A stretch of 64,000 nucleotides of DNA, taken from NCBI GenBank assembly GCA_011389865.1, contig JAABTL010000002.1, positions 124,001-188,000 of the forward strand, in the 5' to 3' direction. A program made the position numbers and the translations under genes. The DNA is from Trueperaceae bacterium. GTDB taxonomy: Bacteria; Deinococcota; Deinococci; Deinococcales; Trueperaceae. Numbering within the stretch: position 1 is the stretch's first letter; each line of letters starts with the position of its first letter. Under the pieces are notes generated by a model. The model did no database searches, was not told the origin of the DNA, and saw only the letters and a list, made by a program, of their open reading frames with translations. Positions 17,707 to 57,771 of this stretch are shown in pieces.

Positions 17707-17725
17707 GCACGACGAAGGAGGCCCC

Positions 17726-19282: not shown

Positions 19283-19294
19283 GTGCTCGTGTGC

Positions 19295-19323
19295 GTCGTG
19301 CCCGCAGCACGTGCGGGCACGAC
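19295..19323 (+). terminator. 12-bp hairpin between P5CDH and the stress-protein gene
   Basis: GTCGTGCCCGCA (19295-19306), GCACG loop, TGCGGGCACGAC (19312-19323): a perfect stem starting 12 nt after the P5CDH stop and 22 nt before the next ATG. No T-run, so it may be a partial terminator or an mRNA-processing/stability element. Confidence 0.55.
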
Positions 19324-19345
19324 CCCCGAAACGAGGAGGGTCGAC

Positions 19346-25994: not shown

Positions 25995-26754
25995 GGTCGC
26001 CGGAGGCGACCTGGTTGCGCAGCGTCCCGATCGCGTCGATCGTGACCTCGACCTCGTCGCCCGGGTGCAGTGGGCCGACCCCGTCGGGGGTGCCGGTGAG
26101 GACCAGGTCGCCCGGCTGCAGGGTGATGAAGCTGCTGACGTACGCGAGCACCTCGGGCACCGAGAAGATCAGGTCGCTCGTGTGGCCGTCCTGCCGCAGC
26201 TCGCCGTTCACGAAGGTTCGGACGCTCAGGTCGGCCGGGTCGAGGTCCGTCTCCAGCCACGGCCCGACCGGGCAGAAGCCGTCGGCGGACTTCGCACGCG
26301 CCCACTGCAGGTCGCCGCGCTGGGCATCGCGGGCGGTGACGTCGAGCGCCATCGTGTACCCGAGGACGTACGAGAGCGCCTCCTCCGCGGCCACGTCGCG
26401 CATCGTCCGGGCGATCACCACGGCGAGCTCGCCCTCGTAGTGCAGCTCACGCGTCCATGCCGGGTAGGGCACGTCGTCGCCCGGTCCTGCGAGGGCGTTG
26501 AGCCCCTTGAGGAAGATGCCGGGTTCCTTGGGCAACTGGTCGACGCTCCCGCCCATCTCCGCCACGTGCTTGGCGTAGTTCTTGCCGACGCAGGCGATGA
26601 CGCGCGGCTCGCAGGGGGCGAGCAGCGTCACCTCCGTCAGGTCGACGAGGTGCCCGCTCGGGCGGCCGAGCATGCCGGTCAGCTGCCGCACGCGCCCCCC
26701 CTCCACCTCGCCCCAGTGAACGCCGTCGAAACTGCGGTAGCGAACGCGCTGCAT
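25987..26754 (-). CDS. fumarylacetoacetate hydrolase (FAH) family protein
   Basis: 255 residues. The FAH catalytic core is present: VIACVGKNYAKHVAEMG, LHYEGELAVVIARTMRDV (acidic metal ligands), YTMALDVTARDAQ, AKSADGFCPVGPWL, GDLVLTGTPDGVGPLHPGDE. Such two-domain proteins are often 2-hydroxyhepta-2,4-diene-1,7-dioate isomerase or oxaloacetate/acylpyruvate hydrolases; the substrate is not assignable. GGGAGG precedes the ATG. It heads the purN-purD run. Confidence 0.85.
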   Translation of the reverse strand: MQRVRYRSFDGVHWGEVEGGRVRQLTGMLGRPSGHLVDLTEVTLLAPCEPRVIACVGKNYAKHVAEMGGSVDQLPKEPGIFLKGLNALAGPGDDVPYPAWTRELHYEGELAVVIARTMRDVAAEEALSYVLGYTMALDVTARDAQRGDLQWARAKSADGFCPVGPWLETDLDPADLSVRTFVNGELRQDGHTSDLIFSVPEVLAYVSSFITLQPGDLVLTGTPDGVGPLHPGDEVEVTIDAIGTLRNQVASGDRG

Positions 26755-26809
26755 GGATGCCTCCCGTGACGCCGGCCGGCGAGCCGCCGGGGCGCCGCTC
26801 TCGGGCAGT

Positions 26810-28801: not shown

Positions 28802-28818
28802 GCCCCCGAGGTTAACGT

Positions 28819-28841
28819 GCGCCCACGCGGAGCGTGGGCGC
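28819..28841. promoter_or_regulatory. palindrome just upstream of the ABC-F -10 box
   Basis: GCGCCCACGC (28819-28828), GGA, GCGTGGGCGC (28832-28841): perfect 10-bp arms ending 5 bp upstream of TAACCT (28814-28809, minus strand). It could be an operator over the core promoter or a second terminator for the upstream unit. Confidence 0.45.
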
Positions 28842-28873
28842 CAGGCGTCCGCGCCCCCGGGCCCGGGCGCCAT

Positions 28874-28905
28874 GCGAAGCCCCGGCCCATGGGCCGGGGC
28901 TTCGC
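28874..28905. terminator. 32-bp perfect palindrome, terminator downstream of the sugar ABC ATPase gene
   Basis: Two 16-nt arms, GCGAAGCCCCGGCCCA and TGGGCCGGGGCTTCGC, with no spacer, 22 bp past the stop of the gene at 28928. No T-run. Shares GAAGCCCC with the terminator at 19914-19940. Confidence 0.7.
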
Positions 28906-28927
28906 GAACGTGGATGAACCGCTGCGC

Positions 28928-30025
<1,098 letters not shown>

Positions 30026-30088
30026 TGGGTTCCTCCGTTCGAATGGGTGCTACGTCGCCGAGGGTACCACGCGCCACCGGCTCTGCGC

Positions 30089-30118
30089 TTGCGTAAGGTT
30101 CCGTATTCGGTCTATATT
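30089..30118 (+). promoter_or_regulatory. promoter of the toxin-antitoxin pair
   Basis: TTGCGT (30089-30094), 18-bp spacer, TATATT (30113-30118); the antitoxin ATG is 10 nt further on. AT-rich relative to its surroundings. Confidence 0.55.
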
Positions 30119-30128
30119 TGATACCATC

Positions 30129-39716: not shown

Positions 39717-40841
39717 TCAGCGCCGCGCACCGCGCCTCCACAACCACACCAGGCCGAGACCGGCGAACAGCAGGTTGGCGGACCACGGACCGACCCAGGC
39801 CGAGACCACCCCGGTCAGCGACAGCAGCTGACCGAACGTGTACAGCAGGTACCAGGCGAGCGTGACCAGCAGCGCCAGGCCGAAGGCCACCGCCCGCGAG
39901 CGCGCGAAGGCGATCGAGAGGGGCAGCGCCGCGAGCAGGAGGGCGACGTTCGAGGCGGGCTCGGCCAGCTTCCGGTGCCCCAGGACGGTCGCCTCGCGGC
40001 GCTCGACGGCGGTGAGGTCGGGGTTGCGGGCGTCGGCCCACAGGCGGGTGATCGAACGCGGGTCCTCGAAACCACCGGCGCTGAAGCGGGCGACGAGCTC
40101 CGCCTCGTCGACGCCGGTCGAGACGACCAGCGGCGCGTCCGGTCCCGCGGAGCGCGCGTCGAGCCGCACCAGCGTGCGGAGCAGCTCGCCCGCATCGCCC
40201 GCGGGCCCGTCGAGCGCGGAGAGGTCGAAGCGCTGGGTGCGGTGGTCGAACAGCACCAGGTCCTGGCCCTCGAACCGGCCGCGATCGGCGCGCAGCAGCG
40301 TGTACACGTCGCCGTCCCAGCGCTCGACGCGGATGTCGCGCAGGGTGCCGTCGCGCTCGAGCCGATCGAACCGCAGGGTGAAGCCGTCGATCGGCACGCG
40401 CTGGGCGGCCAGCCGGAACAGGCCGGTGCGGCCCGCGGTCAGCTGCCAGTAGACGTCGGCGGCAGCCGCATTCGACGCCGGCACCAGCCACTGGTTGAAG
40501 GCCAGCGCCGCGACCGCCAGGCCGACGCCGATCCCGACGAAGACGCTCGTGACCCGCGCGGTGGGCACGCCGCCCGCCTGGATCGCGGTCAACTCGTGAT
40601 CGGTGGTCAGGCGGCCGAAGGAAAGCAGCACGGCGAGCACCAGGGCCACCGGCGCCGTCTGCACCAGCGCCTGCGGCAGCAGCGTCACGAGCCACCAGGC
40701 GAGCTCGACGACGGGCGTCCCGACGATCCACTGCAGCCGTGGCAGCGTCGCCCCCACCACCGCCAAACCCGCGTACAGCAGGGCGCCGAACAGGAAGGGT
40801 GGCCAGGCCTCGCGCAGCAAGTAGCGGTCGATGCGACTCAA
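39717..40841 (-). CDS. LptF/LptG-family permease
   Basis: 374 residues. Six predicted membrane helices: three in the first ~120 residues (LREAWPPFLFGALLYAGLAV..., VELAWWLVTLLPQALVQ..., VTSVFVGIGVGLAVAALAF), a ~150-residue periplasmic beta domain, then three more from LAEPASNVALLLAALPLSIA. ALVLAVLLSFGRLTTDHELT is the conserved LptF/G cytoplasmic loop. In proteobacteria this extracts LPS from the inner membrane; in Deinococcota, without classical LPS, the cargo is unknown. TTG start with GAGG upstream. Follows LptD- and LptA-like genes. Confidence 0.85.
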   Translation of the reverse strand: MSRIDRYLLREAWPPFLFGALLYAGLAVVGATLPRLQWIVGTPVVELAWWLVTLLPQALVQTAPVALVLAVLLSFGRLTTDHELTAIQAGGVPTARVTSVFVGIGVGLAVAALAFNQWLVPASNAAAADVYWQLTAGRTGLFRLAAQRVPIDGFTLRFDRLERDGTLRDIRVERWDGDVYTLLRADRGRFEGQDLVLFDHRTQRFDLSALDGPAGDAGELLRTLVRLDARSAGPDAPLVVSTGVDEAELVARFSAGGFEDPRSITRLWADARNPDLTAVERREATVLGHRKLAEPASNVALLLAALPLSIAFARSRAVAFGLALLVTLAWYLLYTFGQLLSLTGVVSAWVGPWSANLLFAGLGLVWLWRRGARR

Positions 40842-40893
40842 GACGTCCTCATCCGCGTCGGCACTCTACCGTAGGACCCCGCGCGCCCCGCGC

Positions 40894-42897
40894 TCACGGG
40901 CGTCCCTCGGTGACGGGGTTGAGCCGCTCGAGCTCGAGCGGCCGCGACTCGAAGCGCACCCCGACGTTCAGCTGCAGACCCACCCCGTCGTCGTAGCGGT
41001 AGCCGAGATCGAGCACGCCGAAGTCGCTCGTCCACGCCAGGTCCAGCCCGTGGCCCACCCACCAGCGCGCCTCCTCGCGAGTCCAGGACGACAGGTCGAC
41101 CGCCAGGTACGGCCGCCACCACCAGTCACCGGTCGTGATGGGCAGGGCCGCGAACACGGTCGCCTCACGCCAGGGCCAGCCGGGCGCCGTCGGATCGAGC
41201 CGCACGCGGGTGCCGACTTCCCAGGCCTCGCGACGCCACGCCACGCTGGCGCCCAGCGAGGACGTCCGCCCCGGTCGGGGGTCGACGGCACCCGCCAGGG
41301 CGGCGTCGGCACGCACGCTGAGGCGGCCGCCCCAGGCGGCGCCGGAGGTCGAGCCACTCAGCTCGAGGCGCTCGAGACCGATCGCCCGTCCCGGCCGCCG
41401 CGGGTCGCTCCGCCAGTCCCAGCGGGCCACCGCCGTCAACCGGCCCGTTCCATCGCCGTCGGCGCCCAGGGTGACCGATGCCCGCACGTCGCTGCGGTGC
41501 AGCGGGCCCAACCGGTCGACCGTCACGCCGAACGGCGACGCGCCCCACACCCAGCGCGAGAGGTGCTCGACGTCGAGACGCACGCCACCCACCGTCAGCG
41601 TCGCCCTCGGGGCGGCAGACACCCACGTCTGCAGCGCGCCCTCCCCTGGGTAGGCGGTCGTGCCCACGGCGACCTCCAAGGCCGGACGCCAGCCGGCGGC
41701 GAGGTCGCCAGCGACGCGGACCCTCGCAGAACCGCCCAGCCGCGTCCCGACGACCTCGCCGGCGGCGAGCGTCTGCGCCGTCAGGGCGGTGAACGTCGAC
41801 GCGTCGACCTCGACCACGGCCACCCCCGCGGCGGGCGTGGTCCACGCCCGCGACCAGCCCGCCGTCACGCTCTGGTCACGGGCCGGCTCGTCCCACGCGC
41901 CGCCCTCCAGGCGCTGCGCGTACGCGACCGTCCAGCCCGCCGCCAGGGGTCGGGCCACCCGCCACGCGACGCGCACGCGGTCGCTGGCGCCGGTGACGTC
42001 GACGCTCGCATCGCCGGCGCGGGCGGCGACGCGCACCGACAGGTCCGGCGGGCGCTCGTCGTCCCCGATGCCCACGTCCCAGGCGAACCCCACGCCCGGC
42101 GCCACCGGCTGCTCGGCGACACCGACGAGCGTGCCGCGGCGACCCTCGGGGTCCTCGAACACCGAGATCGGTGGCAGCGGAACCGCGAGGTTCTCGCCGT
42201 CGAACGACCAGGGATCGCGCAACGCCCAGCGCAGCGCCCCAACGACGAGGTCGGCACCGTGGAGGGTCACGACCGGCTCGACGAGGTCGAGTTCGGCGGC
42301 CCGCGCCTCGAGGCGAACGCGCGCGTCGGCCGGGGGGCAGTCGCAGGTCGTCAGGCCGACGACGGCGAGCGCGACCCGATCACCGTCGAGGGTCGCCGCA
42401 TCGGCGACCACCCACAGCGTCTCCGTCACGAGCCGCAGCGCATGCGCGGTGATCGTCCCGGAAACCAGGTCGACCCGCAGGTCCTCCGCGAGCGCGACGG
42501 CGTCGGGCGACGTCAGCGTGACCCCGACGAGGACCGCGCCCGCGACGTCCGCCTCGAGCAGGTCGGCGGCGATCGTCCACTCGTCGAGCTGGAACACGAC
42601 GTCGGCGGCCGCCAAGGCGACGCCGTCGCCCAGGCCCGAGACGGTGAGTCGTTCGCTGCGCAGGACGCCGCCGATGGCACTGAACTCCACGCACACGCCG
42701 CCGCTCAGCAGCGCCTCGTCGCGGACGCGGTCGGTGCTCAGGCCCGCGAAGACCGCGCGACCCAGTCCCTCCACCGTCAGCTCCGCGCCGCCCTCGACCG
42801 GGACGCAGGCGTCCGGCGGGACGGCGCCGGACGCGTGCGCGGGCCCAGCGCCGAGCGTCGCCCACACCGCCATGACCAGGACCAGCCAGCGGATCAC
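40894..42897 (-). CDS. LptD/OstA-like outer-membrane protein
   Basis: 667 residues. Signal peptide MIRWLVLVMAVWATLGAGPA then HASG. An N-terminal OstA-like beta-taco region (GLGRAVFAGLSTDRV..., repeating DLVSGTITAHALRLVTETLW motifs) precedes a C-terminal series of alternating beta strands (LDVEHLSRWVWGAS, RTSSLGASVAWRREAWEVGT, LAWTSDFGVLDLGYRYDDGV) consistent with a barrel. CDCPPAD may supply disulfide cysteines. The GTG overlaps the LptA-like stop (GTGA). Envelope-transport role inferred from family and neighbours. Confidence 0.75.
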   Translation of the reverse strand: MIRWLVLVMAVWATLGAGPAHASGAVPPDACVPVEGGAELTVEGLGRAVFAGLSTDRVRDEALLSGGVCVEFSAIGGVLRSERLTVSGLGDGVALAAADVVFQLDEWTIAADLLEADVAGAVLVGVTLTSPDAVALAEDLRVDLVSGTITAHALRLVTETLWVVADAATLDGDRVALAVVGLTTCDCPPADARVRLEARAAELDLVEPVVTLHGADLVVGALRWALRDPWSFDGENLAVPLPPISVFEDPEGRRGTLVGVAEQPVAPGVGFAWDVGIGDDERPPDLSVRVAARAGDASVDVTGASDRVRVAWRVARPLAAGWTVAYAQRLEGGAWDEPARDQSVTAGWSRAWTTPAAGVAVVEVDASTFTALTAQTLAAGEVVGTRLGGSARVRVAGDLAAGWRPALEVAVGTTAYPGEGALQTWVSAAPRATLTVGGVRLDVEHLSRWVWGASPFGVTVDRLGPLHRSDVRASVTLGADGDGTGRLTAVARWDWRSDPRRPGRAIGLERLELSGSTSGAAWGGRLSVRADAALAGAVDPRPGRTSSLGASVAWRREAWEVGTRVRLDPTAPGWPWREATVFAALPITTGDWWWRPYLAVDLSSWTREEARWWVGHGLDLAWTSDFGVLDLGYRYDDGVGLQLNVGVRFESRPLELERLNPVTEGRP

Positions 42898-43586
42898 TCT
42901 GCGGATGCCGCCTCCCAGGACGCGCGTGCCGCGGTCACCGCCGCCAGCCAGCCGCCGTCGACGGCCGTGCTCGCGTCGTACACGACGCCCTCGTCGCTCT
43001 CGCGGGCGTCGAGCTGCAGGCCGGCGCCCTCGGGGCCACGCAGCACCAACGGGCCGTCGGCGTAGGCGTAGGGGCCCACCAGCAGCACGCGACCGCCAGC
43101 GAGCTCGATCCACACCTCGGCGGCCGACGCGTCCGGTTCGACGGCCTCGACGCCACCCAAGAGGCCCACGATGCCCGCGTCGGCGTCGAACCACAGGGCT
43201 TCGCCGGTCACCTGTAGGCCCTCGCGCCGCCATGCGACGCCCCCGCTCGCCGTCAGCGTGCCCGCGGCGAGATCGATCGCCACGAGCGGCGCTTCGACGA
43301 GCCCGAGATCGCCGTCGATCGACACGTCGCGCGCGGAGACCTCGACGCCCTCCAGGTAGGCGATCCAGGCGGCGACGAGCCTCACCCCGCTGCCGCGCTC
43401 GATCAACTCGCCGCCGTCCTCCAGGACGGTCCGGCCGCTGGCCAGGTCGATGCTCTGCCGGCCGTAGGCGGTGACCTCGAGCTCGGCGATGCCACTCTGC
43501 GCCCAACCCGTGGCGACCGCGGCCAGCGCCACCAGCACGAGGATCGACCGCATCGGCGGGCGCGGGTGGCGGGCGGGACCGTTCAT
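42894..43586 (-). CDS. LptA/OstA-N-like periplasmic protein
   Basis: 230 residues. The hydrophobic segment RSILVLVALAAVATGWAQSG at residues 13-32 is a signal peptide or anchor. The rest is repeating beta strands (GRQSIDLASGRTVLEDGGEL, GVEVSARDVSIDGDLGLVEA, GTLTASGGVAWRREGLQVTG) as in the LptA/LptC jellyroll. The ATG at 43586 is favoured because TACCCT lies exactly 6 nt upstream; an alternative ATG at 43553 would start directly at the signal peptide. Coupled to the LptD-like gene. Confidence 0.7.
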   Translation of the reverse strand: MNGPARHPRPPMRSILVLVALAAVATGWAQSGIAELEVTAYGRQSIDLASGRTVLEDGGELIERGSGVRLVAAWIAYLEGVEVSARDVSIDGDLGLVEAPLVAIDLAAGTLTASGGVAWRREGLQVTGEALWFDADAGIVGLLGGVEAVEPDASAAEVWIELAGGRVLLVGPYAYADGPLVLRGPEGAGLQLDARESDEGVVYDASTAVDGGWLAAVTAARASWEAASAE

Positions 43587-43643
43587 GCGCCCAGGGTAAC
43601 CGCGGGAGCATGAGCGGCGCGACCGTCGGTCTTCACCGCGGGT

Positions 43644-44876
43644 TCAGCCTGCGTCGGTCGGGCGCAGGGCGTAGCGGAAGCTCGCGGCGAAGGGCGCGCC
43701 CTCCAACAGCTCGCGTCCCGCCGACGGGGGGGTCGCTAGGATGCGGGCGACCGTCGCCGCCGAGGCCTCGGCCTCGCCGCGATCGAGCCAGGCGTCCGAC
43801 AGCTCCGCGAGGCGCCCCATCGGCGTCTCCGCGGCCAGCGTCACCTCGGTGGCGAGCGCGCGCTGCGCGCGCGCCCATTCGTCGTCCGTCGGGCCGTCGC
43901 GCTCGAAACGCGACAGCACCTCCTCGACCGTCTCAACGACCCGATCACGGGACGCGTCGTTGGTGGTGGCGCTCGCCTGGAAACTGCCGAGTCCGTCCGC
44001 CGGGTCGAACCACAGCGCGGCGTCGTCGACCAGGCCCGGCTCGACCAGTGCCCAGAACAGCCGGCCGTTGTCGTCGTCCCCGACCACACGGGCGAGCAGG
44101 GTGGCGGCGATCCGCGCGGGGTCCTGCGCGCTGGGCGCCGGGGCGAACCACACGAGGTGGGTGCGCTCGAACCCGGAGCCGCGCTCCTCCTCCGCGCCGC
44201 GGCGCGGCGCCCACGCCGGATGGACGCGCGTGGCCCCGCCCGGCGTCCAGTCCTCCGTCGCCGCGCGCACCTCCTCGACGACCTCCTCCCAGGCGTAGGC
44301 GCCGGTCACGATCAGCAGGGCCCGGTCGCTGCGGTACCAGCGGCGATGGAACGACCGCAGCCGCGACGGGCCGAGCGCCTCCACGGACGCGCGCGTGCCG
44401 AGCACCGGCGCCCCGAGCGGGTGGCCGTCGAAGAAGAGCCGCGCACCGCGCTCCCAGGTCCGGTCCTCGGGGCGGTCCTCGGCCATGCCGATCTCCTCGA
44501 GGATGACCCGGCGCTCCACGTCGACGTCCTCTCGCCGCAGAGCGGGCCGCGCCAGCGTCAGGAGCTGCGCCGTCAACGGGGCGCGCAGATCGCGCAGGGC
44601 GGCGCCGTAGAACAGGGTGCGGTCGTGGCTGGTGTACGCGTTGACTCGGGCGCCCAGCTCGTCGAAGGCGCGGTTGACGTCGTCGGCGCGGCGGCCGCGG
44701 TCGCCCTTGAACGCCAGGTGCTCGAGGAAGTGCGCGGCGCCCGACTCGTCGGCGCGCTCGTCCCGCGCCCCCACGTCGAACGCGAGGCCGACCGCGACCG
44801 ACCGGGCATCGCTGCGCTCTCCCAGGAGGCGCAACCCGTTCGGCAGCGTGAGGTGGTCGAAGCCGCCCGCGCTCAC
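43644..44876 (-). CDS. M16 family zinc metallopeptidase (catalytic subunit)
   Basis: 410 residues. The inverted zinc motif HFLEHLAFKG (HxxEH) is near residue 50; the distal Glu ligand is in DVERRVILEEIGMAEDRPED. Domain pair of the M16B type (about 200 + 200 residues). Its upstream neighbour is an M16 homologue without the zinc motif, so the two likely form a heterodimer, as in the Thermus TTHA1264/1265 pair. The GTG overlaps the partner stop (GTGA). Confidence 0.88.
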   Translation of the reverse strand: MSAGGFDHLTLPNGLRLLGERSDARSVAVGLAFDVGARDERADESGAAHFLEHLAFKGDRGRRADDVNRAFDELGARVNAYTSHDRTLFYGAALRDLRAPLTAQLLTLARPALRREDVDVERRVILEEIGMAEDRPEDRTWERGARLFFDGHPLGAPVLGTRASVEALGPSRLRSFHRRWYRSDRALLIVTGAYAWEEVVEEVRAATEDWTPGGATRVHPAWAPRRGAEEERGSGFERTHLVWFAPAPSAQDPARIAATLLARVVGDDDNGRLFWALVEPGLVDDAALWFDPADGLGSFQASATTNDASRDRVVETVEEVLSRFERDGPTDDEWARAQRALATEVTLAAETPMGRLAELSDAWLDRGEAEASAATVARILATPPSAGRELLEGAPFAASFRYALRPTDAG

Positions 44877-46120
44877 GCGGACCACCTGCCCGCGGGCGAC
44901 GGGCCGCTCGTCACGACGGTCGCCGCGACGGGGGGCCGCGAGTCCAGGAAGGCGTTGATGCCGGCAAGGGTGACGCCTTCGATGTCCGCCTCGATCCGCT
45001 CCACGGTCCTCGGCTGCCCGAAGCGGACGACGTCGCTCGCGAGCCGCGCCGCGCGCCCGCCGCTCGTCTCGGACTCGAACACGACGGACGATCTGAGCAG
45101 CAACTGGGCCCGGTGCAGCTCACCGGCATCGAAGCCGGCGCGACTGCGCTCGAGCTCCTGGAGCAGGACGTCGATCGCCTCGCTCGCTCGCTCGGGCGCG
45201 GTCACCGCGTGCGTGAGTCGGAACGCGTCGCCGTCGACCACGTGGATGGCCGAGCCGACGTCGTAGGCGAGTCCACGCTCCTCGCGGACGACCGTCCACA
45301 GCCGCGCAGCGGTCGCGCCGGCGAGCGCGGTCATCGCCAACGCCTGCTCGGTCCAGCCCGCCGCGCGCGGCGGCACCGCCGTGTCGATCAGCGCGACGTG
45401 CGTCTGCTCGCCGTGGCCGCCGCGGTGCACCCGCGCGGCGGCCCGCGGACGGGGGACCGGCATCGGCGCGGCTCTGCCCCGCCAGCTCCCGAAGGCGCCC
45501 GCGGCCGCCGCGAGCAGCGCCTCGGCGTCGGCTCCGCCCGCCAGCGCGAGGACCGCGCCCTCCGGCGCCAGCCGCGAGGCGGCCAGGGCCCGCACGTCCG
45601 CGGGCGCGAGGCGCTCGAGGTGCGTGCGCAGGCCGTACGCGCTGCGGCCGTGTGCACCCGCGTAACGCGCGGCGACCGCCGCCTCCAGCAGGCGCTCGCC
45701 CGGCGAATCCGCCACGGCGGCGAGTTCTTGCAGGGCGAGTTGCCGGGCGCCCTCGAACTCCTCGTCCGCGAGCCGCGGTGCCGCGACGGCGCTCGCCAGC
45801 AGGGGCAGCACGTGCGTCGCGTCCGACGCCAGGCAGGCGACGCCAAGGGTCGCGTGCGCACGCCCGACGCCCCCGCCTCGTCGGGCGCCGAAGCGATCGA
45901 AGGCGTCCGCGTAGGCGTGGGCATCGAGCTCTGCCGCGCCGCGCTGCAGCCATTCGTGGAGGACGACCGCGACGCCCTGCGCGTCGGCGGGGTCGCCCGC
46001 CGTCCCCAGCGGCCAGCGCAGGTGGGCGCTCACGATGGCGCGCCCGGGCATGTTGGCGACGACGATCCGCAGCCCGTTGGGCAGGACGGTGTCGAGGGGA
46101 TCGGCTGGCGGGTGGCGCAT
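44873..46120 (-). CDS. M16 family peptidase-like protein, non-catalytic partner
   Basis: 415 residues with M16 topology (LDTVLPNGLRIVVANMPGRA; LAPADVRALAASRLAPEGAV; TALAGATAARLWTVVREERG; LAYDVGSA with the R/Y pair of the C-terminal domain). At the zinc-motif position it reads VVLHEWLQRG, lacking HxxEH, so it should not be catalytic; the C-terminal R...Y substrate-binding residues are retained. TAGGCT lies 7 nt upstream of the ATG, so this pair probably has its own leaderless promoter. Confidence 0.85.
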   Translation of the reverse strand: MRHPPADPLDTVLPNGLRIVVANMPGRAIVSAHLRWPLGTAGDPADAQGVAVVLHEWLQRGAAELDAHAYADAFDRFGARRGGGVGRAHATLGVACLASDATHVLPLLASAVAAPRLADEEFEGARQLALQELAAVADSPGERLLEAAVAARYAGAHGRSAYGLRTHLERLAPADVRALAASRLAPEGAVLALAGGADAEALLAAAAGAFGSWRGRAAPMPVPRPRAAARVHRGGHGEQTHVALIDTAVPPRAAGWTEQALAMTALAGATAARLWTVVREERGLAYDVGSAIHVVDGDAFRLTHAVTAPERASEAIDVLLQELERSRAGFDAGELHRAQLLLRSSVVFESETSGGRAARLASDVVRFGQPRTVERIEADIEGVTLAGINAFLDSRPPVAATVVTSGPSPAGRWSA

Positions 46121-46188
46121 CCGCGCGAGCCTAGCACCGCGCGTGCCCGTGCGCACGCGCGCTTCACGGTTGCGCCCGGGCGGCTTCC

Positions 46189-46908
46189 TCAGACGGCGCG
46201 CACCTCGAGGTCGGTCCACGTCGCCGCGGGCGGCGCCTCCAGCGCCCGCCGGATCGCCTCCGCCACCGCGCCGACCGGGGCGACACCGTCCGGCGCACCG
46301 CTGGAGAGCGGCTCGTCGTTCGTGTCGTAGGCGCGGCCCTCGGCCTCGTAGACTGCACGCTGCATCGGCGTGTCGGTCCGTCCCGGGTACAGGCTGGTGA
46401 ACCGCACACCGCGGTCCGCCTCCTCTGCACGCCACGCGTCGGCGACGGCCCGCAGGGCGAACTTGCTGGCGGCGTAGCCGCCCCATCCGGCCTTGGCGCG
46501 GCGGCCTGCGCCCGAGTTGACGAACAGTACGTGGCCACGCGAGGCGCGCAGCGCGGGCATCAACGCCCGCGTCAGGCGCACGGGGGCGGCGACGTTGACG
46601 CGCCACTGCCAGTCGAGGTCGTCCGGATCGGCCTCCGTCAGCGGCGACAGGGCGATCACCCCGGCCGCGTGAACGATCGCATCGAGCGGTTCGGCGGCGG
46701 CGAGCGCCACCAGCGCCGCGAGATCGTCCGCGTCGGTCAAGTCGGCGACCGCGGTCGCGACCGACCCGCCGTGCGGTCCCGCTACCGCCACCAGGCGCTC
46801 GCGGTCGCGCCCCGTGGCGAGCACCCGCCATCCGTGATCGGCGAGGGTCGCGACGGCGGCGGCGCCGATGCCGCTGGAACCGCCGGTCACCAGCACGCGC
46901 CGGTTCAA
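46189..46908 (-). CDS. short-chain dehydrogenase/reductase
   Basis: 239 residues. Cofactor motif VLVTGGSSGIGAAAVATL with Arg at the end of the second strand (ATGRDRERL) suggests NADP(H). VHAAGVIALSPLTEADPDD is the NAG-type strand; catalytic Ser in VNSGAGRRAKAGWGGYAASK with Tyr-x3-Lys. Substrate unknown. TTG start overlapping the trpC stop (TTGA). Confidence 0.85.
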   Translation of the reverse strand: MNRRVLVTGGSSGIGAAAVATLADHGWRVLATGRDRERLVAVAGPHGGSVATAVADLTDADDLAALVALAAAEPLDAIVHAAGVIALSPLTEADPDDLDWQWRVNVAAPVRLTRALMPALRASRGHVLFVNSGAGRRAKAGWGGYAASKFALRAVADAWRAEEADRGVRFTSLYPGRTDTPMQRAVYEAEGRAYDTNDEPLSSGAPDGVAPVGAVAEAIRRALEAPPAATWTDLEVRAV

Positions 46909-47786
46909 CTGGGATCTCCGGCGCCGTGCGCCCGCCGTGCCGCCACCAGGAACGCCGTCAGCGTCCCACCGGGGTCGCCGCTCCCGGCGAGGTGGCTACC
47001 GACCAGCACCGCGTCGGCGATGCCGGCCAGGCGCGCCACGGCGGCGCCGTCGCGGTAACCGGACTCGGCGACCCAGGTCGCCTCCGGCGCCAGCCGGCGG
47101 CCCGCCTCGATCAGCCTGGGCGCGACCGCGGTGTCGATCTCCAGGCTGCGCAGGTCGCGGTTGTTGACGCCGATCAGGCGCGCGCCCGCGGCGACCGCCA
47201 CGTCGAGCTCTGCCTCGTCGTGCACCTCGACCAGCGCGTCGAGGCCCAGCGACCGCGCGTACCGCAGGTAGGGTCCGACCGCCTCCCCCAGCAGGCCGAC
47301 GATCAGCAGAACCGCCCGCGCGCCGGCGCGCGCCGCCTCCTCGAGCTGTCGTGGGTCCACGACGAAGTCCTTGCGCAGGGTCGGCAGCGGCACCGCCGCG
47401 GCCACCGCCCGCAGGTGGGCGAGCTCGCCGCCGAAGCGGTGCGGCTCCGTCAGCACGGAGACCCCGGCCGCACCCGCGGCCGCGTACGCGCGCGCCGTCG
47501 CCAGCGGGTCGAGGTCGGCGATGGCGCCCAGCGACGGCGAGGCGCGCTTGATCTCGGCCACCACGGCCGGCAGTCGGCCCCGCGCCGCGCGCCCGCCGAT
47601 GGCTTCGAGCAACCCCGCGGCGCTCGCGGAAACGACGGGCTCGTGGCTGCCGCCCTCCTCTTCGTCGACCGCGCGTGCGCGCCCGATCTCGCCGATCACG
47701 CCGGGCACCCGCGCGAGGACCGCCGGCGCGAGCGGCGCAGGGCGCGCCGCCGCAGCGTCGGAGGACCCCGCGGTGTCACAGGACAT
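46905..47786 (-). CDS. trpC: indole-3-glycerol-phosphate synthase
   Basis: 293 residues (usually ~260; the first ~40 are an Ala-rich extension). TIM-barrel signatures: [110 protein letters not shown]. It makes indole-3-glycerol phosphate for tryptophan. No other trp genes are nearby, so it is a scattered trp gene. Overlaps acyP by 11 nt. Confidence 0.93.
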
Positions 47787-48057
47787 GGAACCCGCGTAGG
47801 CCGGCGGCCTCGCTCCAGGCGACCTCGAGCGCGTCGACCGCCGCGTGCGCCGGTCCCTGGGAGAGGGCGACGAGCGCGTGCTCGATCTCGCCGCGATCGC
47901 CCTCGAGGAGCACCTCCACGCGGCCGTCGGGGAGGTTCTCCGCGTGACCGGCGAGGCCGAGGTCGAGGGCATGACGGCGGACGAAGGCGCGGTAGCCGAC
48001 CCCCTGGACCCGGCCCCGGACCAGGATGGTGGCGCGGACGTCGGTGGCGTCGGTCAT
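47776..48057 (-). CDS. acyP: acylphosphatase
   Basis: 93 residues, the standard size. [20 protein letters not shown] holds the catalytic Arg; [20 protein letters not shown] holds the catalytic Asn and strand. Hydrolyses carboxyl-phosphate bonds such as acetyl- or carbamoyl-phosphate. The ATG is 6 nt after TACCAT; a second in-frame ATG at 48084 also has TACCAT exactly 6 nt upstream, so two leaderless starts (93 or 102 residues) are possible. Confidence 0.92.
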
Positions 48058-48063
48058 GCCGAC

Positions 48064-48096
48064 ATGGTACCTCAGGCCCCTCATGCGCCGATGGTA
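48064..48096 (-). promoter_or_regulatory. two TACCAT -10 boxes, each 6 nt from an in-frame acyP ATG
   Basis: TACCAT at 48096-48091 precedes ATG 48084; TACCAT at 48069-48064 precedes ATG 48057. Both ATGs share the acyP frame. Confidence 0.5.
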
Positions 48097-48174
48097 GGGT
48101 GGCGACCAGGACGGGGCTCGTCGCGTGTCGCAAGCGCGCTGGACCGACGCCGACCCGGCCCGAACCGACACCGG

Positions 48175-51100
48175 ATGCGACGACGAACCCTCACCACCCT
48201 CACGCTGTTCGCGGCGCTGGCCCTCACGCTGGGTTGGCTCCCCAATTCGTCGTGGCTGCGGGGCGTCCTCGGTTCGCTGCTCGTCGACTCGGCCGCCGCC
48301 GCGAACGCCACCCTCAGCTTCACTGCGATCACCGGCTACGCCTGGCGCGGCCTGACGCTGACGGAGCCGCGTCTCGTGGCCGACGGCCTGGACGTGAACG
48401 CGGCCTCCGTCTCGGTCAGCTGGTTCCTACCGGCGCTCGTCGTCGGCGAGTTGCCGCTCCGGCTCGACGTCGCGGGACTCGCCGGGGACGTGGAGGTCGG
48501 CCGCCTGAACGTACCGGCGGCGGACGGCGAGCCCTCCGCCGTGCGGGTGCGCATCGACGGAGCGACGATCGACATCGCCGACCTGCGGGTCGCCGAGGTC
48601 CCGTTCGATCTCCCCGACCTCAGTATCGAGCGCCTGGAGGCGACGAGCCTGGACGACGGGCACTGGGAACTGTCCACGTCGCTGGTGACGGCCGAGGGGC
48701 ACCTCGAGGGGAGCGTCCGCGGTCGCCTCGGCGACGACGCCTTCGAGGTGACGCTCGAGCGCGGCGACGCGCGCGTGGCCCGCCACTGGTGGGACGGCAT
48801 CGAGGCCGGCACGGTGCGCGGCGAGCTCACCGTCGCGTCCGGTCTCACCGCGGGCCGTTTCGAGGTCGTGGGCGGCGCCATCGACGCGCTCGGTACGCCC
48901 GCGACCGACATCCAAGGTCCCATCGCCTGGCGCGACGACGTGATCGAGGTCGCGCTGGCGGGCGCCATCGTCGGCGGTCGCTTCGCCGCCGGCGGGACGG
49001 TCGACCTCGCCCGAGCGCGCTGGCAGGCGGAGGGGAACGCGGAGGCGCCCTTGGCCGAGGCGAGCCGCGCGCTCCTCGAGCTCCTCGGCGCCCCCGGCCT
49101 CCCGGGCGCCGACGATGGCGTCGTGCGGGCCAGCGTGACGGCCGAGGGCTGGACCGCGGCGACGGTCGCGGCGGACGTCACCGCCGTGGGCGACTGGCTG
49201 GGCGCCGCGCTGGCGGTGGACGACCTGAGGTTGGCGTACGACACCGCGCGGGGGCTGTCGCTGGCGATCGATGGTCGCTGGGGGGACGGGCCGCTGCAAC
49301 TGCGCACCGAGGCCCGGGACGGTCCCACCGACTGGCGCGTGGCCGCGGGTCCGCTGCGCGTGCTCGGTGTGCCGCTCGAGGCGGTCGCGGCCACCTTCAC
49401 GACCGGCGACGGGCCCGTGCGAGGGCGCGCGACGGCCCGCGCTGGCGAGGGGCCGTGGTGGCTTGCGGCCGACGTCGTGCTCGATCCCGAGGGCCTGCAG
49501 GCCTTCGTCGACGGCAGCGCCTGGGGTGGCCCCATCACGGGTGCCTTCGCCACCGCCGTGTCCGCCGACGCACGCGTCGAGGGCGGCGTCACTTGGGTGG
49601 CGCCCGACGAGTTGGCTGCGGGTGCGGCGCGCGTGGAGGCCCGGGTGAGCGGTGACCTGAGCGCGCCCAGCTTCGACCTGGAGGTGGGCGGCGACCGCGC
49701 GGTGACGCCACGCGTCGCCGGCCTCGACCTCCCCTCGCTCCTGCCCGACCTCGACCTCCGTGGCGCCGCGAGCGCCTCGCTCGCCGGCGGGCGTCTGCAG
49801 GGCAGCGGACGGCTGGGGCCCGTCGCCCTCGAGATCGACGGCGACGACTGGACCGTCGGCATCGACGCGTTGAGCCTGGGTGGCGCGCTGAGTGGCACCG
49901 TGGGGCCGGTCACGGCGAGCGGGAACCCGGACGGTTGGTCGGCCACCCTGCGCACGACCGTCGCCGCCGGGGCGCCGCTTCCGGGAGGCGCCGAGCCGCT
50001 GTGGAGCGTGGCCGAAGACGTCGCGTGGCGAGTCGAGGGTGGTCCGGACGGCTGGACCGCGATCGGCGACGACGACCGCTGGCGGCTGACCTCGGATGGC
50101 GGTGGCGCCTGGAGCGCCGAAGCCGCGCCGGTCACCTGGCTCGGTCGGCCCGCGAGTCTCGACGCGCAGGGCACGTTCGCCGCCTTCGCCGCCACCGTCG
50201 CGCTGCCAGAGTTGCTCGCGTCCGCCGACTGGGGCGACGGCTCGCTGCGGGCGTCCGTCCTGAGCGGCGGCGAACGACTCGACGGCACCTGGGAACCGGG
50301 CGGACGACTCGACGTCGAGGGCGGGCTCGACCTCGGGGTCGCCCTCCGGGGATGGGCCGACGTCGCCGGCGTGGCGAGCGTCACGGCGGCGTGGGAGACG
50401 TCCCGCGACGGCCTGCCGCGCGGCGCGGCGACGGTGGGCCTGGTGGCGCCGTGGCCCGCGACGATCGCCCTGACCGCCGACGGGACCGCGGTCAGCTGGG
50501 AGGCGACGAGCGAACTCGCCGACGTGCCCCTGCGGTCGTCCGGCGAGTGGCGACCGGACGCACCGGAGCCGCTCGCCGGGACCCTCGCCTGGGGGGACCT
50601 CGCCCAGCTCCGCATCGACGGCGATGGCGCCGCGGGCGCGGGGACGTGGCCAGGCTGGGGCATGGCGGGCGTGCGTGTCGAACCGCAGGCGTGGCGCGTT
50701 CGGCTGTCGGGAACGGGTGCCGGAGAGGCCGAGTTCGGCGCCACGCGCGCCACCTTCGACCTCGCCGAGCCAAGCCTCGACGCGGCGATCGACCTCGGCC
50801 TGTCGTGGGGCGGGCAGCCGGCACGCGTCACGGGGCGCGCCGGCTGGTCGGCAGAGCGACCCGACGGCGAACTCGCGGCGACGCTCGAGCTCACCGGCGG
50901 AGCCCGGGCGACCCTCGTCGGTGACCTCGGCGGCGTCACGGGGACCTTCGCGGGGCCGGTCGCGGATTGGGCCTCAGTGGCCAGCCCGCTCCTGGCGGCC
51001 GAGGGCGAGGCGGCGCTCGTCGGCGAGCTCACGGGCACCCTCGCGTGGTCGCCCGAGGCGTCGCTGGAGGTGCGCGCCGGCTGGCGCGACGACGAGGACC

Positions 51101-54100
51101 GGCCCGTCAGTCTCGCCTGGACGCCCGCCGGTGGCGAGTTGAACGGCGCCGACTGGCGCGCCAGCCTCGACCCCGACGGGCGTCTCGAGATCGAGGCCGA
51201 GCAGGCGCGCCTCGCTCCGCTGGTGCGGCGCGACGACCTGGCGCTCGCGATCGACGGCAGCCTCGCGGTCTCGCTGGGCCTGGCCGTGATGGCCGGCACG
51301 GCGACCGGGGGCGCCGCTGGCGGCGCCCTCGACGTGACCGCCTCGTACGCGGGGGCCGACCTGGCCGCCCGACTCGTCGGCGGCGACGAGCCGGCCCTCG
51401 ACGCGACGGCGAGTCTCGGCCCACTGCGCGCATGGGCGGAGGGACCGGTGGTGTTCGGCCCGGCCATCACCTGGGGCGGCAATTGGCGCCTCGCCGACGA
51501 CGCGGGCATCGGACTCGACGGCCGCGGCGCCTTCCTCGCGTCCCCCGACGAGAGCCGCCTCGACGGCACGGTCGACCTGTCGGCGGGGGAGCTGGGCCCG
51601 CTGGCGTGGCCACGGCTCGCCGCGGAGGTCGAACTGCGGCCCGACGACCTCGCGCTGTCGGGCGCAGCGGGGCTCACCGGCAGCTGGCCCGCGGGGCTGT
51701 CGACGACCGTGACCCTCGCGGACGTGCCGACCTCCCTGTGGCTGCGACCGGACGACCGAGGCTGGGCGCTCGACCTCGGCGGCGAGCTCGTGACCGCCGC
51801 ATGGTCGGGCGACCTCGACGCCTGGTCGCTCCGCGGCGCGGCCCGGCTCGCAGGCATGAAGGTGGCGCTGGAGGCCACGGGGGCGGCGGCGGCGGCCAGC
51901 GGTCGCTGGTCACTGACCCACGACGCATCCACCGACGCCGACCCGGCGCCGTGGGCGGAAGGGCGCCTGACGCTGGACGACGGCGTGCTGGAGGTCGTCG
52001 CGCGGGGCGAAGACGTCGACCTTGCGGCGGCGTCAGGGCTCGCGCAACTGCCCGACTCCGCCGTGCGCGGCGAACTGCGTGCGCGGATCGCGGCCGCTGG
52101 CTGGTCGCTCGACGGCCTGCTCGACGCGTCCTTGCCACCCGAGACCGGTTGGCCCGTCAGCGCGCGCCTGGAGGCCGCCGGCCAGACCTTGGTCCTGGCG
52201 GCGGAGGCCGACGCGGCCGGCGTGGCCACCACCTGGAGCGTGAGCGGCGACGACCTCGGCGACTGGCCCGCCACGCGCTGGGCGCTCGCCGGCCGGATCG
52301 ACGACGTCCCCTGGAGCGGCGAGGCCCGCACGGACGCGACCGGCCTGGAGCTCGACCTCGCGAGCGCCGACGGCCTGTGGCGGCTGACCGCGGCGGGCGG
52401 GCGGGCGGGCGAGGCCAGCGCCACCGGTCCCGACGGGCTCGCCGCCGATCTCTCCTGGCGTCTCGACCCGTCGCTCGAGGCCGAGCTCGAAGCCGCAGCG
52501 GCCGGGTTCGCGGTCGCCGCCCACGTCGGCCTGCCGGCGAACGGCGGCGGCGGGGGGCCGTGGCTGCGGCTCGACGTGGCGCACGCCGAGGAGCCGTGGC
52601 GGGCGCACCTCGTCGGTCCGCTCGACCCGCTGGCGCTCTCCGGCGCCGTCGCGCTCACCGACCACGGCTTCGCCGCCAGCCTGGTGTCGTCACCATCGTG
52701 GCGGCTCGACTGGGGGGGGCTCGAGCTGGCCTGGGAGGACGGCGGCTTGGCGATCGACGGTCGCAGCGAGACGGGGCAGCTGCCGCTCGTCGAGCTGGAG
52801 GCTACCGACCTCCGCTGGCGCGGCGACGCGGGCTGGACGGGTCGCGGTCGCCTCGCGGGCACCTGGGACGCCGGGACGCTGGGGCGCCTCGACGCCGTCG
52901 CCGAGCTCGCCGGCGCAGGCGACCTCGAGGCCCTGCTGGCGCTGACGCTGGACGGCGCCGACGTCGGGGGCGCGTCGCTCCGCGTCGGGTCCGACCCGAC
53001 CGCCGGGGTCCGCGGCGACGCCGAGCTCGCCGTGCCGCTCGCCGCGTTGGCGTCGTCGACGCTGTTCGCCAGCGGCCCCGTAGGCTTCGGCGCCACGGGC
53101 ATCGACGCCGACCTCGAGCTGCGGCTCGCGGGCCCGCGGGAGGCGGCCGGGCGGTTGACGGCCGACGCCGAGGCCATCACGGCCCAGCTGTCCGGCCCCG
53201 GCATCGAGCTGACGTCGGAACTGCGCGGCGCCCTCGGCACGGGCCGTCTCGAGCTCCGCGAGCTGCCGCTCGACGAGGCGCTGCCGTTCCTGCAGGAGCC
53301 GCGCCTGAGCGCCAATGCCGACGTCACGTGGGACGCCGCGGGCTGGGCGTGGCGGGTCGAAGGCCTGCGCCTCACGACGCCCGGGAGCCTGCTGGAGGCC
53401 GGTGGCGTCGGGGGGCCGAACGGGCGCGTGGAGGCGTCGGCCCGCGTCGACGTCGACCTGCGCGACCTCCTGCTCGACACGGCGATCGCCGGCCGCGTGC
53501 ACGGTCCCGTGTCGTTCGACGGCGAGATCGGCGAACCGCTGGCGGGCACGATCGCGGCCAACCTGGAGGCGGAGGACGTGCACTGGGACGGCCTCGCCGC
53601 GACGTGGTGGGCCGCGCTGACGGTGACCGGCAGCGCCGGCGATCCCCTCGTTCGCGCCGACTGGGCGGCCAGCGGTGCGGACGCGCACCTCGACGGCGAC
53701 GCCGCTTGGTGGCCGGCGCGCTCGACCGGCGAGCTGCGGGCGGACGGCGACCTCTTCGGTGCGCGGCTGGCGCTCGACGTCGGGCTGGAGGCGGAGCGCT
53801 TCAGCGGCGGCGGCGAGGTCGATGTCGGCGGTGAGACCTGGAGCGTGACGTCCGAAGCCGGCCGCCTCGCCGTCCGTGGATCCGACCGCTGGCGGGACTG
53901 GTCGGTCGCGATCGATCCCGCCGACTGGAGCGCCGACGTCACCGGCGACCTGGCGGCCTTGCCCACCGCGAGCGGCAGCGTGGCGGGGACGATCGGCCTC
54001 GGCGCGGCCCAGCGACCCGTCGTCGATCTCGCGTGGCGCGCGGCCGCGGTCGGCGGCATCGAGCTGGGTGACGGCCGCGTCACCGGCGATGGGGTAGCGG

Positions 54101-57100
54101 GTTGGGCCCTGACCGGCACGCGCGCGACGGGCTCGCTCGATCCCGACCTGCGGCACTGGATGCTGACGCTCGACGGCGTTGCGACGCCCGTAGGCGACAC
54201 CAGCGCGTCGCTCGCGGCGCGCGGCGGCCCGGACGGCATGGAGTTGGCCGCGACGTGGACCGGCGACACGCCGGCCGGTCCGATCGACCTGCGCATCGAC
54301 GCAGCGGGCGAGGGAGATCGCTGGCGCGGGGACGTGACGGGACACGCGTTCGCGGGTGAGGTCGCGTGGCCGCTCACGCTCGACGGCGATGCGCTGGGTG
54401 GGAGCGGCCGCCTGGCCGGGGCCAGCGTGGCGGGCACGTCCTTCGACGCCGAACTAGGGCTCGCCGGCACGGTTGCAGACCCCGAGCTCGCCATCGGCGT
54501 CGCGGCCGGGCCCGATGGCGCGTGGCGCGTCGACGCCGGCTGGCGCGCTGGCGTCGCCCGTGTCGAGGCGTCGCTGCCGTCCGCCGACGGGGTGCAGCTG
54601 TCCGTACGCGGCGAGGCGTGGCCGGAGATCGACGTCGCCATCGACGGTGGCGACGCCGGTCTCGTGAGGCTGACCGGGGGCTGGCGAAGCGAGGCCCTGC
54701 GCCTCACGGGTGCCCTCGCGCTGGACGTGGGCGACCTGCGGATCGAGGTGGCGGAGCCCACGACCCTGCGCGTCCTGCTGCCGGCCCTCGGCGGTGGGCT
54801 GACCACGACCCTGCCGGACGCGCCGCTGCAGGGCGCCATCGCCGAGGTGTTGGAGGCGGGCTGGTGGTGGCGCGCGACCGGCGGCTGGGCCGGCTCGCTG
54901 CGCGCGCTCGGTCCCGACGGCGCGTGGATCGTGGCCGACGGGCTGTCGTTCGAACGGAGCGGCGTGGTCGCGACCTTGGACGGTCGGGTCGCAGCAGGCG
55001 CCGGCGGCGACGCCGGCGACGGAGTCGACGCCGGCGACGGAGTCGACGCTGTGCTCGACCTCCGCCTCGACCTGAGTAGCCTGGCCGACGACTTCGCCTT
55101 CGCCGGCGCGTGGGCTTGGTCGAGCCCGGTGGTCGGCAAGCTGCGTTGGAGCGACGGGCTGCTGTCGCTGACCGGAGAGGCGCCGTGGGGCATCGACGCG
55201 ACCGTCGACCTCGCCTCGGGTGCGGCTGCGATCGCCTTCGACGTGGCGGGTTCGGACACGGGCGACCGCCGGCCCCCATCCGCCGAGGGCCGCCTGACGC
55301 TCGATGCCGACGGCTGGGGCGGCACGCTGCGCGTCGAGACGGTGACGGACGCCCTGGGCGACGGACCGGCCTCGGTGGACCTCGCCATCGCGGGCGCCGG
55401 TGACCATCTCACGGTCGACGCCAGCGTCCTGGGCACCCGCGGCAGCGCGACGGCGGTGGGCCGCTGGGACGCCGGCGCCCTGCTGCCCGACGGCTGGGGC
55501 CCCCCGTCGGTCCCAGTGCGCGAACTCGACGCGCGCGTCGTCGGGCTCGACCTCACGGGCATCGCCGGCATCCCGGGCATCTCGGGCGATCTCGGGGGCA
55601 GCGTGACGTTGCGAGACGACCGGCTCTTCGGCCTCTTGACCAGCGACGCCCTCACGTACGGCGAACGCACCGATGCGGCGCGCCTCGAGTTCCAGGCCGA
55701 CCTCGCGGCAGCGACGGGCATCGTCGGGAGCGGCCGCCTCGACCTCGAGGGGGCGAACGCGCAGTTCGACGTCGGTCCAGCGGGCGTCTCGACGCTCGTG
55801 CGCCTCGAGCGCTTCCCCCTGCACGCGTGGGTCGAGGCGGTGGTGGGACCCTCCGACGTCAGGGCCGAGGTCACCGGCGCCGTTCGTGGTGCCTGGGCTT
55901 GGGGCGCTGCCGCCCCGGACGACCTGCGGGTCGCGGCCGAACGCATCGAGCTCGAGCGCGCCGGCGTCGTGACGATCGGCGAGCTGTCGATCGAGTGGGA
56001 CGGCCATTCGCTGACCATCGGTCGGGCCGCGTTCGAGGGGCGCGGCACGTGGCAGGCGCGTGGTCGCATCACACCGGAGCTGCTCGACCTCGAGCTGCTG
56101 GCGCAGGCGGCCGACTTCGGGCCGCTGCTCGGCCTGGTGCCGAGCTTCGCGCGCTACGGTGTCTCTGCCGAGGGCAACCTCGTCCTCACCGCCCACGGCA
56201 CGCCCGCGTCGCCCGACGTGGCGCTGCGCACCGACGACCTCCGGCTACTCATCGCGGGCACCCGCTACCAGCTGTTGGAGACGCGCTTCACGCTCCGCGA
56301 CGAGGACTGGAGCGGCCGGGCCGAGATCGTGGCGCTCGACCCGGTAACCGGCCGGCTCGAGCTCGCGACGAACGGGCGCATCGGTCCCTTCCCCGAGGGC
56401 GGCTTCGGCCTGAACGCCCGCGCCGTCGGCGACCTGGACGTCCCCTTCGTGGGCCGCGTCGAGGCCATCACGGCGGAGCTCACGTGGAGCGACGACGAGG
56501 CGCCGGCGCTCGCTGCCCGTGGCACGCTCGGCTCGCCCTTCACGATCGACGGCACGCTCGCGCCGCTCGACCTCCGCGCCAACGGGCGCGACCTTCTCGT
56601 CACCCTCCCCTTCCTAGCCATCGCCGACGCGCAGCTCGACGTCGACCTGAGTCTGGTCGACGACGTCGGCGGCGTCCGGCTCGGCGGCCGCGTCGACGCG
56701 AGCCAGGCGCGGATCGACCTCGCGACGCGAGCCGCGGTCACGCCGCCGGTCGACGAGAGCGCGCCAGCGACCCAGGAGACGGCCCCCAGGCCCGTCGGCG
56801 ACCCGCGCGAACGGTTCCGCTTCGACGCGGTCAGGATCGTCGCGCCGCAGCGGGTGACGTTCAACGAATCGTTCGGCAACGCAGAGGCAAGCGTCGACCT
56901 GTCACTGGGGGGTACCGCGGCGTCGCCCCAACTCGCCGGCGAGGTCACCGCGCTGCGCGGCACCGTCCGCTTCGCGGGCCGTGACCTGGAGCTGACCGAG
57001 GCGGTGGCGACCTTCGACCCCGCGCGCGGCGTGTACCCGGCCGTGCGGGTCGCCGGCCGCACCGCGTTCGAGAAGGCGCGCGTCGTTCGCCCCGGCGAGA

Positions 57101-57771
57101 CCGTACGCTTCCTGTCGCCCGTCGGTCAACGCTTCGAGGTCGTGCTCGTGCTCGAGGGTGTCGCGATCGACGGCGCCAACGGCTTCACCCTCGACCTCAC
57201 CCCCGTGCTGACCAGCGACGCCGTCGTCGAGGGCCTCGACGGTGGGGGCGCGCGTTCGCTCTCCGAACTCGAGCTGCTGACGCTCCTCACGCTCGGACGT
57301 TTGGAGGCGGGCGGCGGCTTCGCCGGTGCCGTGGCGCAGAGCGCGTTGGATACGGCCGTCGACTTGCTGATCACCGGCGAGATCCAGGCGGCGTTGTCCG
57401 AGGCGCTGGGCGGGGCGGTGGTGGAGCTGCGGACGACGGCGTTGTCGTCCCTGCTCGACGGCCAAGACCCCTTCGGCGTGTCGCTGCGCCTGGGCGGCTA
57501 CCTGAGCGATGAAGTCTTCGCCTCGTACCGCGTCTCGACCCTGGGCGGCGACGCCTTCAGCAACGAGGTGGCGTTGACCTACCAGCTGGGGCCTGTCGCG
57601 ATGGACGTGACCGGGCGGTTCGACGTCGCCGCGGGCACGGCCGCGACCGGGGGGCCGTCGCTGGCCATCGGCGGGCGCTACGGCCTGGCGCCCGGCTGGG
57701 CGCTCGAACTCGGCCTCGACCTCTCGACCGAGCGGTCGACCGCGCGCCTCGGCGTCACCTGGCGCTGGTGA
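48175..57771 (+). CDS. tamB: giant TamB/DUF490 translocation and assembly module protein
   Basis: 3198 residues, roughly 2.5 times E. coli TamB. The N-terminal signal anchor [20 protein letters not shown] is followed by ~2800 residues of amphipathic beta strands with a repeated pattern (e.g. [20 protein letters not shown]) expected to form a long beta-taco spanning the periplasm. The C-terminal ~350 residues are the DUF490/TamB domain, including [20 protein letters not shown] and [20 protein letters not shown], ending in RLGVTWRW. By family it moves lipids or assembles outer-membrane proteins. No TamA/BamA gene is adjacent. Start chosen at the signal anchor; no Shine-Dalgarno seen, and an in-frame ATG at 48091 is possible. 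It contains an 18-bp duplication (55014-55049). Confidence 0.9.

Follow-up and report, generated by a model that had tools for sequence, protein, structure and literature searches.

A Trueperaceae locus beside a giant TamB encodes what is probably one of two parallel Lpt-type lipid bridges of Deinococcota

Which lipid would an Lpt-type gene set carry in Deinococcota, and does a giant TamB encoded nearby belong to the same machinery? The question is raised by a 64,000-nucleotide stretch of a Trueperaceae bacterium (GenBank assembly GCA_011389865.1, contig JAABTL010000002.1; here called the window, G000:C22:124001-188000), which lies in a 3.05-Mb draft genome whose nearest relatives are Trueperaceae metagenome bins. 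A first-pass annotation had placed LptF-, LptD- and LptA-like genes, a paired M16 protease and a 3198-residue TamB within 18 kb; all of these genes are present, at exact or nearly exact coordinates with some starts corrected, and Pfam matches (PF03739, PF00675/PF05193 and PF04357) together with predicted folds bear out their identities. We consider it fairly probable that Deinococcota have two Lpt-type lipid bridges working in parallel, both probably dating from their last common ancestor, and that the window encodes one of the two, line B. Line A consists of a tandem LptF-LptG pair and an LptD of about 800-1,080 amino acids (aa), LptD-A; line B consists of a solo permease (S), an LptA (LptA-B) and a shorter LptD (LptD-B), encoded in the window as follows.

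39717..40841, minus strand: S, solo LptF/LptG-family permease, inner-membrane subunit of line B (PF03739, E 1.1e-55; solo-permease clade)
40894..42897, minus strand: LptD-B, 667 aa, with signal peptide, N-terminal jelly-roll and C-terminal outer-membrane beta-barrel (AlphaFold model and Foldseek)
42894..43553, minus strand: LptA-B, 219 aa, secreted Lpt jelly-roll protein (AlphaFold model and PDB fold matches)

S is the sole Lpt gene of the window that sequence models recognise; Pfam assigns it to the LptF/LptG permeases, and it scores below both NCBIfam equivalog cut-offs (TIGR04407 for LptF, 106.5 bits against 230; TIGR04408 for LptG, 111.2 against 240). LptA-B matched no Pfam or NCBIfam model, and no LptD match was obtained for LptD-A or LptD-B in Pfam, NCBIfam or PDB-sequence profile searches. 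The coding sequence of LptD-B starts at GTG 42897 and overlaps the LptA-B stop by 4 nt, the listed open reading frame (ORF) of 905 aa extending upstream beyond the true gene; LptA-B starts at ATG 43553, with an alternative in-frame ATG at 43586 that would give 230 aa. Folds were predicted from alignments of 16 LptD-like and 15 LptA-like sequences, the window's own included and the rest from named Trueperaceae contigs. The LptD-B model (predicted local distance difference test, pLDDT, 81.9) was compared with the PDB by Foldseek, where the best 28 matches were all LptD (E 4.5e-19) and the alignment ran end to end, from the jelly-roll through the barrel. For LptA-B (pLDDT 90.7), the leading PDB fold matches were LptD N-domains, LptC and LptA, with TM-scores of 0.76 (by target length) against LptC 3my2 and, for some chains, 0.73-0.74 against LptA 2r1a; its predicted fold is that of a secreted Lpt beta-jelly-roll protein. 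The cysteines agree in part. The disulfide cysteines of E. coli LptD are C31, C173 and CC724-725 in YSSCCYAIRVGYER, those of Meiothermus-type LptD-B are C31, C122/124 and YADCCFIWRVGYQ, and the window protein keeps Cys31/Cys185. In the first alignments, a Cys-Cys pair was present in all 17 LptD-A and in 12 of 17 LptD-B sequences, lying upstream of the E. coli-like position in three Thermus-type LptD-Bs. Membership of LptD-B in the LptD family thus rests on the predicted fold and the cysteine motifs, and we file it as LptD-like, not as a curated LptD. A generic porin is disfavoured for this gene by the fold ranking and the cysteines.

The permeases point to a second line. The window genome encodes three PF03739 permeases, S and a tandem pair on contig C11, and three are found in most of the 86 Deinococcota genomes at least 90% complete to which our phylum counts refer. 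Downstream of the tandem pair, Trueperaceae, Thermaceae, Marinithermaceae and family f3 encode LptD-A, which bears the cysteine motifs PCxRC and DRCCWALR and, by profile, an OstA-like N-terminal stretch of its own. The LptD-A and LptD-B profiles align with each other over 470 columns (E 6.5e-12); in hhalign comparisons with the single E. coli LptD sequence, the LptD-B profile gave E 0.045, and the Cys173 region of the E. coli protein lined up with the PCxRC motif of LptD-A in an alignment that is not significant alone. On these sequence grounds, LptD-A would share the LptD fold. In a maximum-likelihood tree, every sampled S permease falls into one clade (96/99 support) and the tandem permeases fall into two others (97/98 and 100/99), each of the three spanning all families. 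Genome G007 has an extra permease, placed in one of the tandem clades, which suggests a lineage-specific duplication; in the tree output, the labels of the window genome's own tandem pair are swapped because its frames overlap. The simplest reading is that three permeases may already have been present in the common ancestor of Deinococcota. Elsewhere in the window genome, where the first-pass annotation had proposed looking for LptB and LptG, there is one high-confidence LptB (324 bits against a cut-off of 240); the tandem permeases supply the LptG that it had in mind, but they belong to a second line with its own LptD and not to a single Lpt line. No LptE or LptC was identified adjoining either line. 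The gene after LptD-A in the window genome is lipoprotein-like (408 aa; L043:4806-6032, contig C11), and a lipoprotein-like gene of about 300-430 aa (cluster c6) follows LptD-A in Thermaceae and Marinithermaceae (L055:11134-12252); both are candidate LptE analogues.

Both lines are widespread, LptD-A being present in 84 and LptD-B in 79 of the 86 genomes. The LptA-B/LptD-B pair is the most conserved neighbourhood, found in 5/5 families sampled; it adjoins S in most Trueperaceae, Thermaceae and Marinithermus and in part of f3, and it stays together where S has moved away, as in Oceanithermus-type genomes and in f2, whose LptD-B is very divergent. The losses follow the lines as well. Genomes G100 and G008 have a single permease, S, and lack LptD-A while keeping LptA-B and LptD-B. 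Conversely, three Thermus-type genomes (G050, G064 and G068) have two permeases and no LptD-B; another (G060), likewise with two permeases, retains only a C-terminal remnant of LptD-B, 89 aa long (L156:8228-8497), as if line B were decaying; and G088 has one permease and no LptD-B. The absence from G064 is probably real because that assembly has 2 contigs and 99% completeness. Altogether, one LptD is missing (the remnant counted as missing) from 7/7 of the genomes that fall short of three permeases, against 3/79 of the others (Fisher p 2e-8, relatedness ignored). We take G108 to be Truepera radiovictrix, G009 Marinithermus hydrothermalis, G031 Meiothermus ruber and G011 Oceanithermus profundus, and the family and genus names used for f4 and f5 are likewise our assumption; the genomes whose loci were read did not knowingly include Deinococcus proper.

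The region had been described as belonging to a lineage without classical lipopolysaccharide (LPS), and for Trueperaceae this description fails: LpxC occurs in 24/27 Trueperaceae, usually within an lpx cluster, and in 48/86 genomes phylum-wide, including nearly all Meiothermus-like genomes, Marinithermus and 4/4 f3 genomes. It was not found among the 86 genomes in Thermus, f2 or the Oceanithermus-type genera. The conserved cluster reads mreB ... lpxD-lpxC-Gfo/Idh-fabZ-lpxA-lpxB-like-msbA, with names taken from the translations read and from blastp between species; LpxB is divergent and scores weakly in Pfam, and a few of the loci read yielded no match for some members. Only mreB-fabZ is left of it in Thermus, and in f2 and Oceanithermus-type Marinithermaceae the lpx slot of relatives is filled by mreB-fabZ-S-monogalactosyldiacylglycerol (MGDG)-type glycosyltransferase-polysaccharide deacetylase (YkoP) (L047, L051, L068, L075 and L077). 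In the window genome itself, LpxC, LpxB and FabZ were not found; since FabZ is missing along with the other two, an assembly gap is the simplest reading and a true absence of LPS genes is disfavoured. Its congener G087 carries lpxB-lpxA-fabZ-Gfo/Idh-lpxC on one contig. Two further observations concern the cluster. A closed Trueperaceae genome (G084, L151) keeps lpxA, lpxB, fabZ, Gfo/Idh and msbA and is without LpxC, and no LpxD was matched in its cluster; and the Gfo/Idh oxidoreductase between lpxC and fabZ (L119-L131) is placed like GnnA and would thereby point to lipid A built on a 2,3-diamino sugar.

These distributions bear directly on cargo. LptD-B is present in 47/48 LpxC-positive genomes, and among the 38 LpxC-negative ones LptD-A is present in all and LptD-B in 32; neither line is therefore likely to serve only as an LPS exporter. 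Most LpxC-less Thermus genomes keep both lines, from which we take a glycolipid other than LPS as the probable cargo of line B; the glycosyltransferase adjoining S in lpx-less lineages also hints at a glycolipid. By analogy with Lpt, we propose that S, probably as a homodimer, would draw an amphipathic lipid from the inner membrane with the help of the one clear LptB-type ATPase, that the LptA-B jelly-roll would carry it across the periplasm and that LptD-B would deliver it to the outer leaflet; the homodimer, the sharing of LptB and the direction of transport are all part of the proposal. Line A would handle a different lipid in the same way. In lpx-bearing genomes, lipid A-based LPS would travel by one of the lines, more likely line A, which has a two-permease pair and complete cysteine motifs. 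A fuller version of this proposal, which we hold tentatively and at less than even confidence, makes the two lines dedicated bridges, with A serving LPS or its replacement and B, through a homodimeric permease and its own LptD, serving a non-LPS glycolipid and taking charge of outer-leaflet assembly once Thermus-like lineages had lost lipid A.

The remaining genes of the locus include the giant TamB.

43644..44885, minus strand: M16 peptidase, active-type subunit with HFLEH (PF00675/PF05193)
44873..46231, minus strand: M16 peptidase, inactive-type partner that has lost HxxEH (PF05193/PF00675)
48175..57771, plus strand: giant TamB, 3,198 aa, neighbour of line B (PF04357)

In the order of transcription, the minus strand reads trpC (IGPS), SDR, the two M16 peptidases, LptA-like, LptD-like and the LptF/G-like permease, followed by a gene whose translation reads as RelA/SpoT; the solo permease of one related metagenome bin is 92% identical to S. 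The TamB gene is divergent, on the plus strand, and is separated from the M16 pair by SDR and trpC. The locus is thus no uninterrupted envelope operon, and a single operon with TamB is ruled out by the opposite strand, by the intervening trpC and SDR and by the lack of linkage elsewhere. Two other ORFs of the window, 26753-30121 (1,122 aa) and 17642-19852 (736 aa), had no Pfam match at E 1e-5. The TamB runs from ATG 48175, begins with a hydrophobic N-terminus, as read directly, that would serve as a membrane anchor, and matches PF04357 (DUF490/TamB) only in its C-terminal part, at residues 2796-3140 (E 2e-18); at 2.5 times the length of E. coli TamB (1,259 aa), it is as oversized as first described. 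TamB was matched in 106/111 Deinococcota genomes and is giant wherever the frame is complete, with medians for complete-looking frames of about 2,700 aa in Thermus, 2,800 in Meiothermus-like genomes, 3,330 in Trueperaceae and 4,300 in f3 (ORF lengths, hence slight overestimates, with frames cut by contig ends excluded by hand). The proposed search for BamA and TamA yielded one Omp85-family match in the window genome and no second TamA-like copy. Typical diderm spacing is about 30 nm (PMC8688812), the periplasm of T. thermophilus measures about 70 nm (PMC4463427) and that of D. radiodurans 90-121 nm (PMC8688812, PMC9388160); with E. coli as the third case, these values correspond to roughly 0.02-0.03 nm of periplasm per TamB residue, from three points only.

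Other arrangements of these parts have to be weighed. Line B might be the LPS line of Deinococcota, serving lipid A-based LPS wherever lpx genes exist and retained for another cargo in lineages that lost them. The lpx cluster of most Trueperaceae, Meiothermus and Marinithermus fits this, as do the higher frequency of LptD-B in LpxC-positive than in LpxC-negative genomes and the loss of LptD-B and one permease from several lpx-less Thermus, one of which keeps the 89-aa remnant; yet most lpx-less Thermus genomes retain line B, its solo permease and divergent LptD depart further from the canonical Lpt system than line A does, and no lpx gene adjoins line B in the loci read, so that we regard this as rather unlikely. 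Slightly less credible still, in our view, is a single network in place of two bridges, in which one LptA-B would take lipid from both permease sets and the LptDs would sort cargo between them or stand in for each other. One clear LptB in the window genome is what such a network would show, and the loci of line A that were read have no separate LptA beside LptD-A (no search for one was made elsewhere in the genome); against it stand the OstA-like stretch of LptD-A itself and the two genomes, G100 and G008, in which S, LptA-B and LptD-B persist although the tandem pair and LptD-A are absent.

We find it improbable that line B works together with the giant TamB as a single module suited to a wide envelope. 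The two lie within about 20 kb of each other in the Trueperaceae examined, and TamB length and periplasm width do rise together in E. coli, Thermus and D. radiodurans, but the genes are unlinked in Meiothermus and Thermus, trpC and SDR intervene in the window, and three points are too few to establish scaling; moreover, E. coli TamB measures 150-200 A by atomic force microscopy and dynamic light scattering, and linear scaling of that length predicts no more than about 32-43 nm for Thermus. The annotated idea that TamB bridges a wide envelope had already been published for D. radiodurans (PMC5382914). We conclude that TamB is a separate bridge, merely adjacent to line B in Trueperaceae.

Several points weigh against two parallel bridges as we favour them. 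The LptD-A profile aligned with the single E. coli LptD at E 0.2, not significant alone. The LptD-B model gave low TM-scores against LptD (0.25-0.29), its 3Di match being long and specific, and domain placement or barrel size therefore differs from LptD; the window protein and its close relatives have also lost the C-terminal Cys-Cys pair that most relatives in the family keep. The genes of a line are usually close, so one deletion or assembly gap can remove both permease and LptD, and co-loss is no proof of joint function. Cargo is something we infer throughout, and LptA-B could serve both lines. Finally, the outer-membrane lipid composition of D. radiodurans was reported to be like that of the inner membrane (PMC9388160), so that an exporter of outer-leaflet glycolipid would be less needed in that species.

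Two Lpt lines in Deinococcota look new, no description of them having been found in the open-licence literature; already known are the giant TamB with the spanning idea, set out in 2017 for the 4,002-aa protein of D. radiodurans (PMC5382914), and the LPS-outer-membrane ancestor of Deinococcota, inferred in 2016 (PMC5007114). The putative LptD-A/LptD-B pair contradicts a 2022 survey (PMC8871954), according to which lptD never occurs in atypical diderms, Deinococcus-Thermus among them; the survey drew on this in its discussion of a possible single-membrane bacterial ancestor. As far as Deinococcota are concerned, that argument would lose its support if nearly all genomes encode two divergent LptD-like proteins. 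If our proposal is true, LptD-type translocons would be lipid exporters able to work without LPS in Deinococcota, and duplicated Lpt in culturable, LpxC-less Thermus makes it testable whether they export non-LPS lipids.

Comparison with known systems places the locus. The window TamB resembles DR_146T of Deinococcus radiodurans (PMC5382914) in its giant size, its phylum and the lack of a TamA homologue, and differs from it in length (3,198 against 4,002 aa) and in having one Pfam stretch where two TamB motifs were reported. With the E. coli Lpt system (LptB2FG-C-A-DE), Deinococcota share the permease family, a jelly-roll bridge, the LptD fold as predicted for LptD-B, in part the Cys31/Cys173/Cys-Cys signature within the family, and one clear LptB. 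Unlike E. coli, they have two LptDs and three permeases per genome, one of them solo; no LptE or LptC was identified beside either line, the lines are present also without LpxC, and their LptDs go unrecognised by Pfam and NCBIfam. The Lpt cluster of diderm Firmicutes (PMC5007114) likewise pairs a single LptF/G homologue with LptB and OstA-type proteins of about 200 aa, but no LptD was found there, whereas each Deinococcota line has one.

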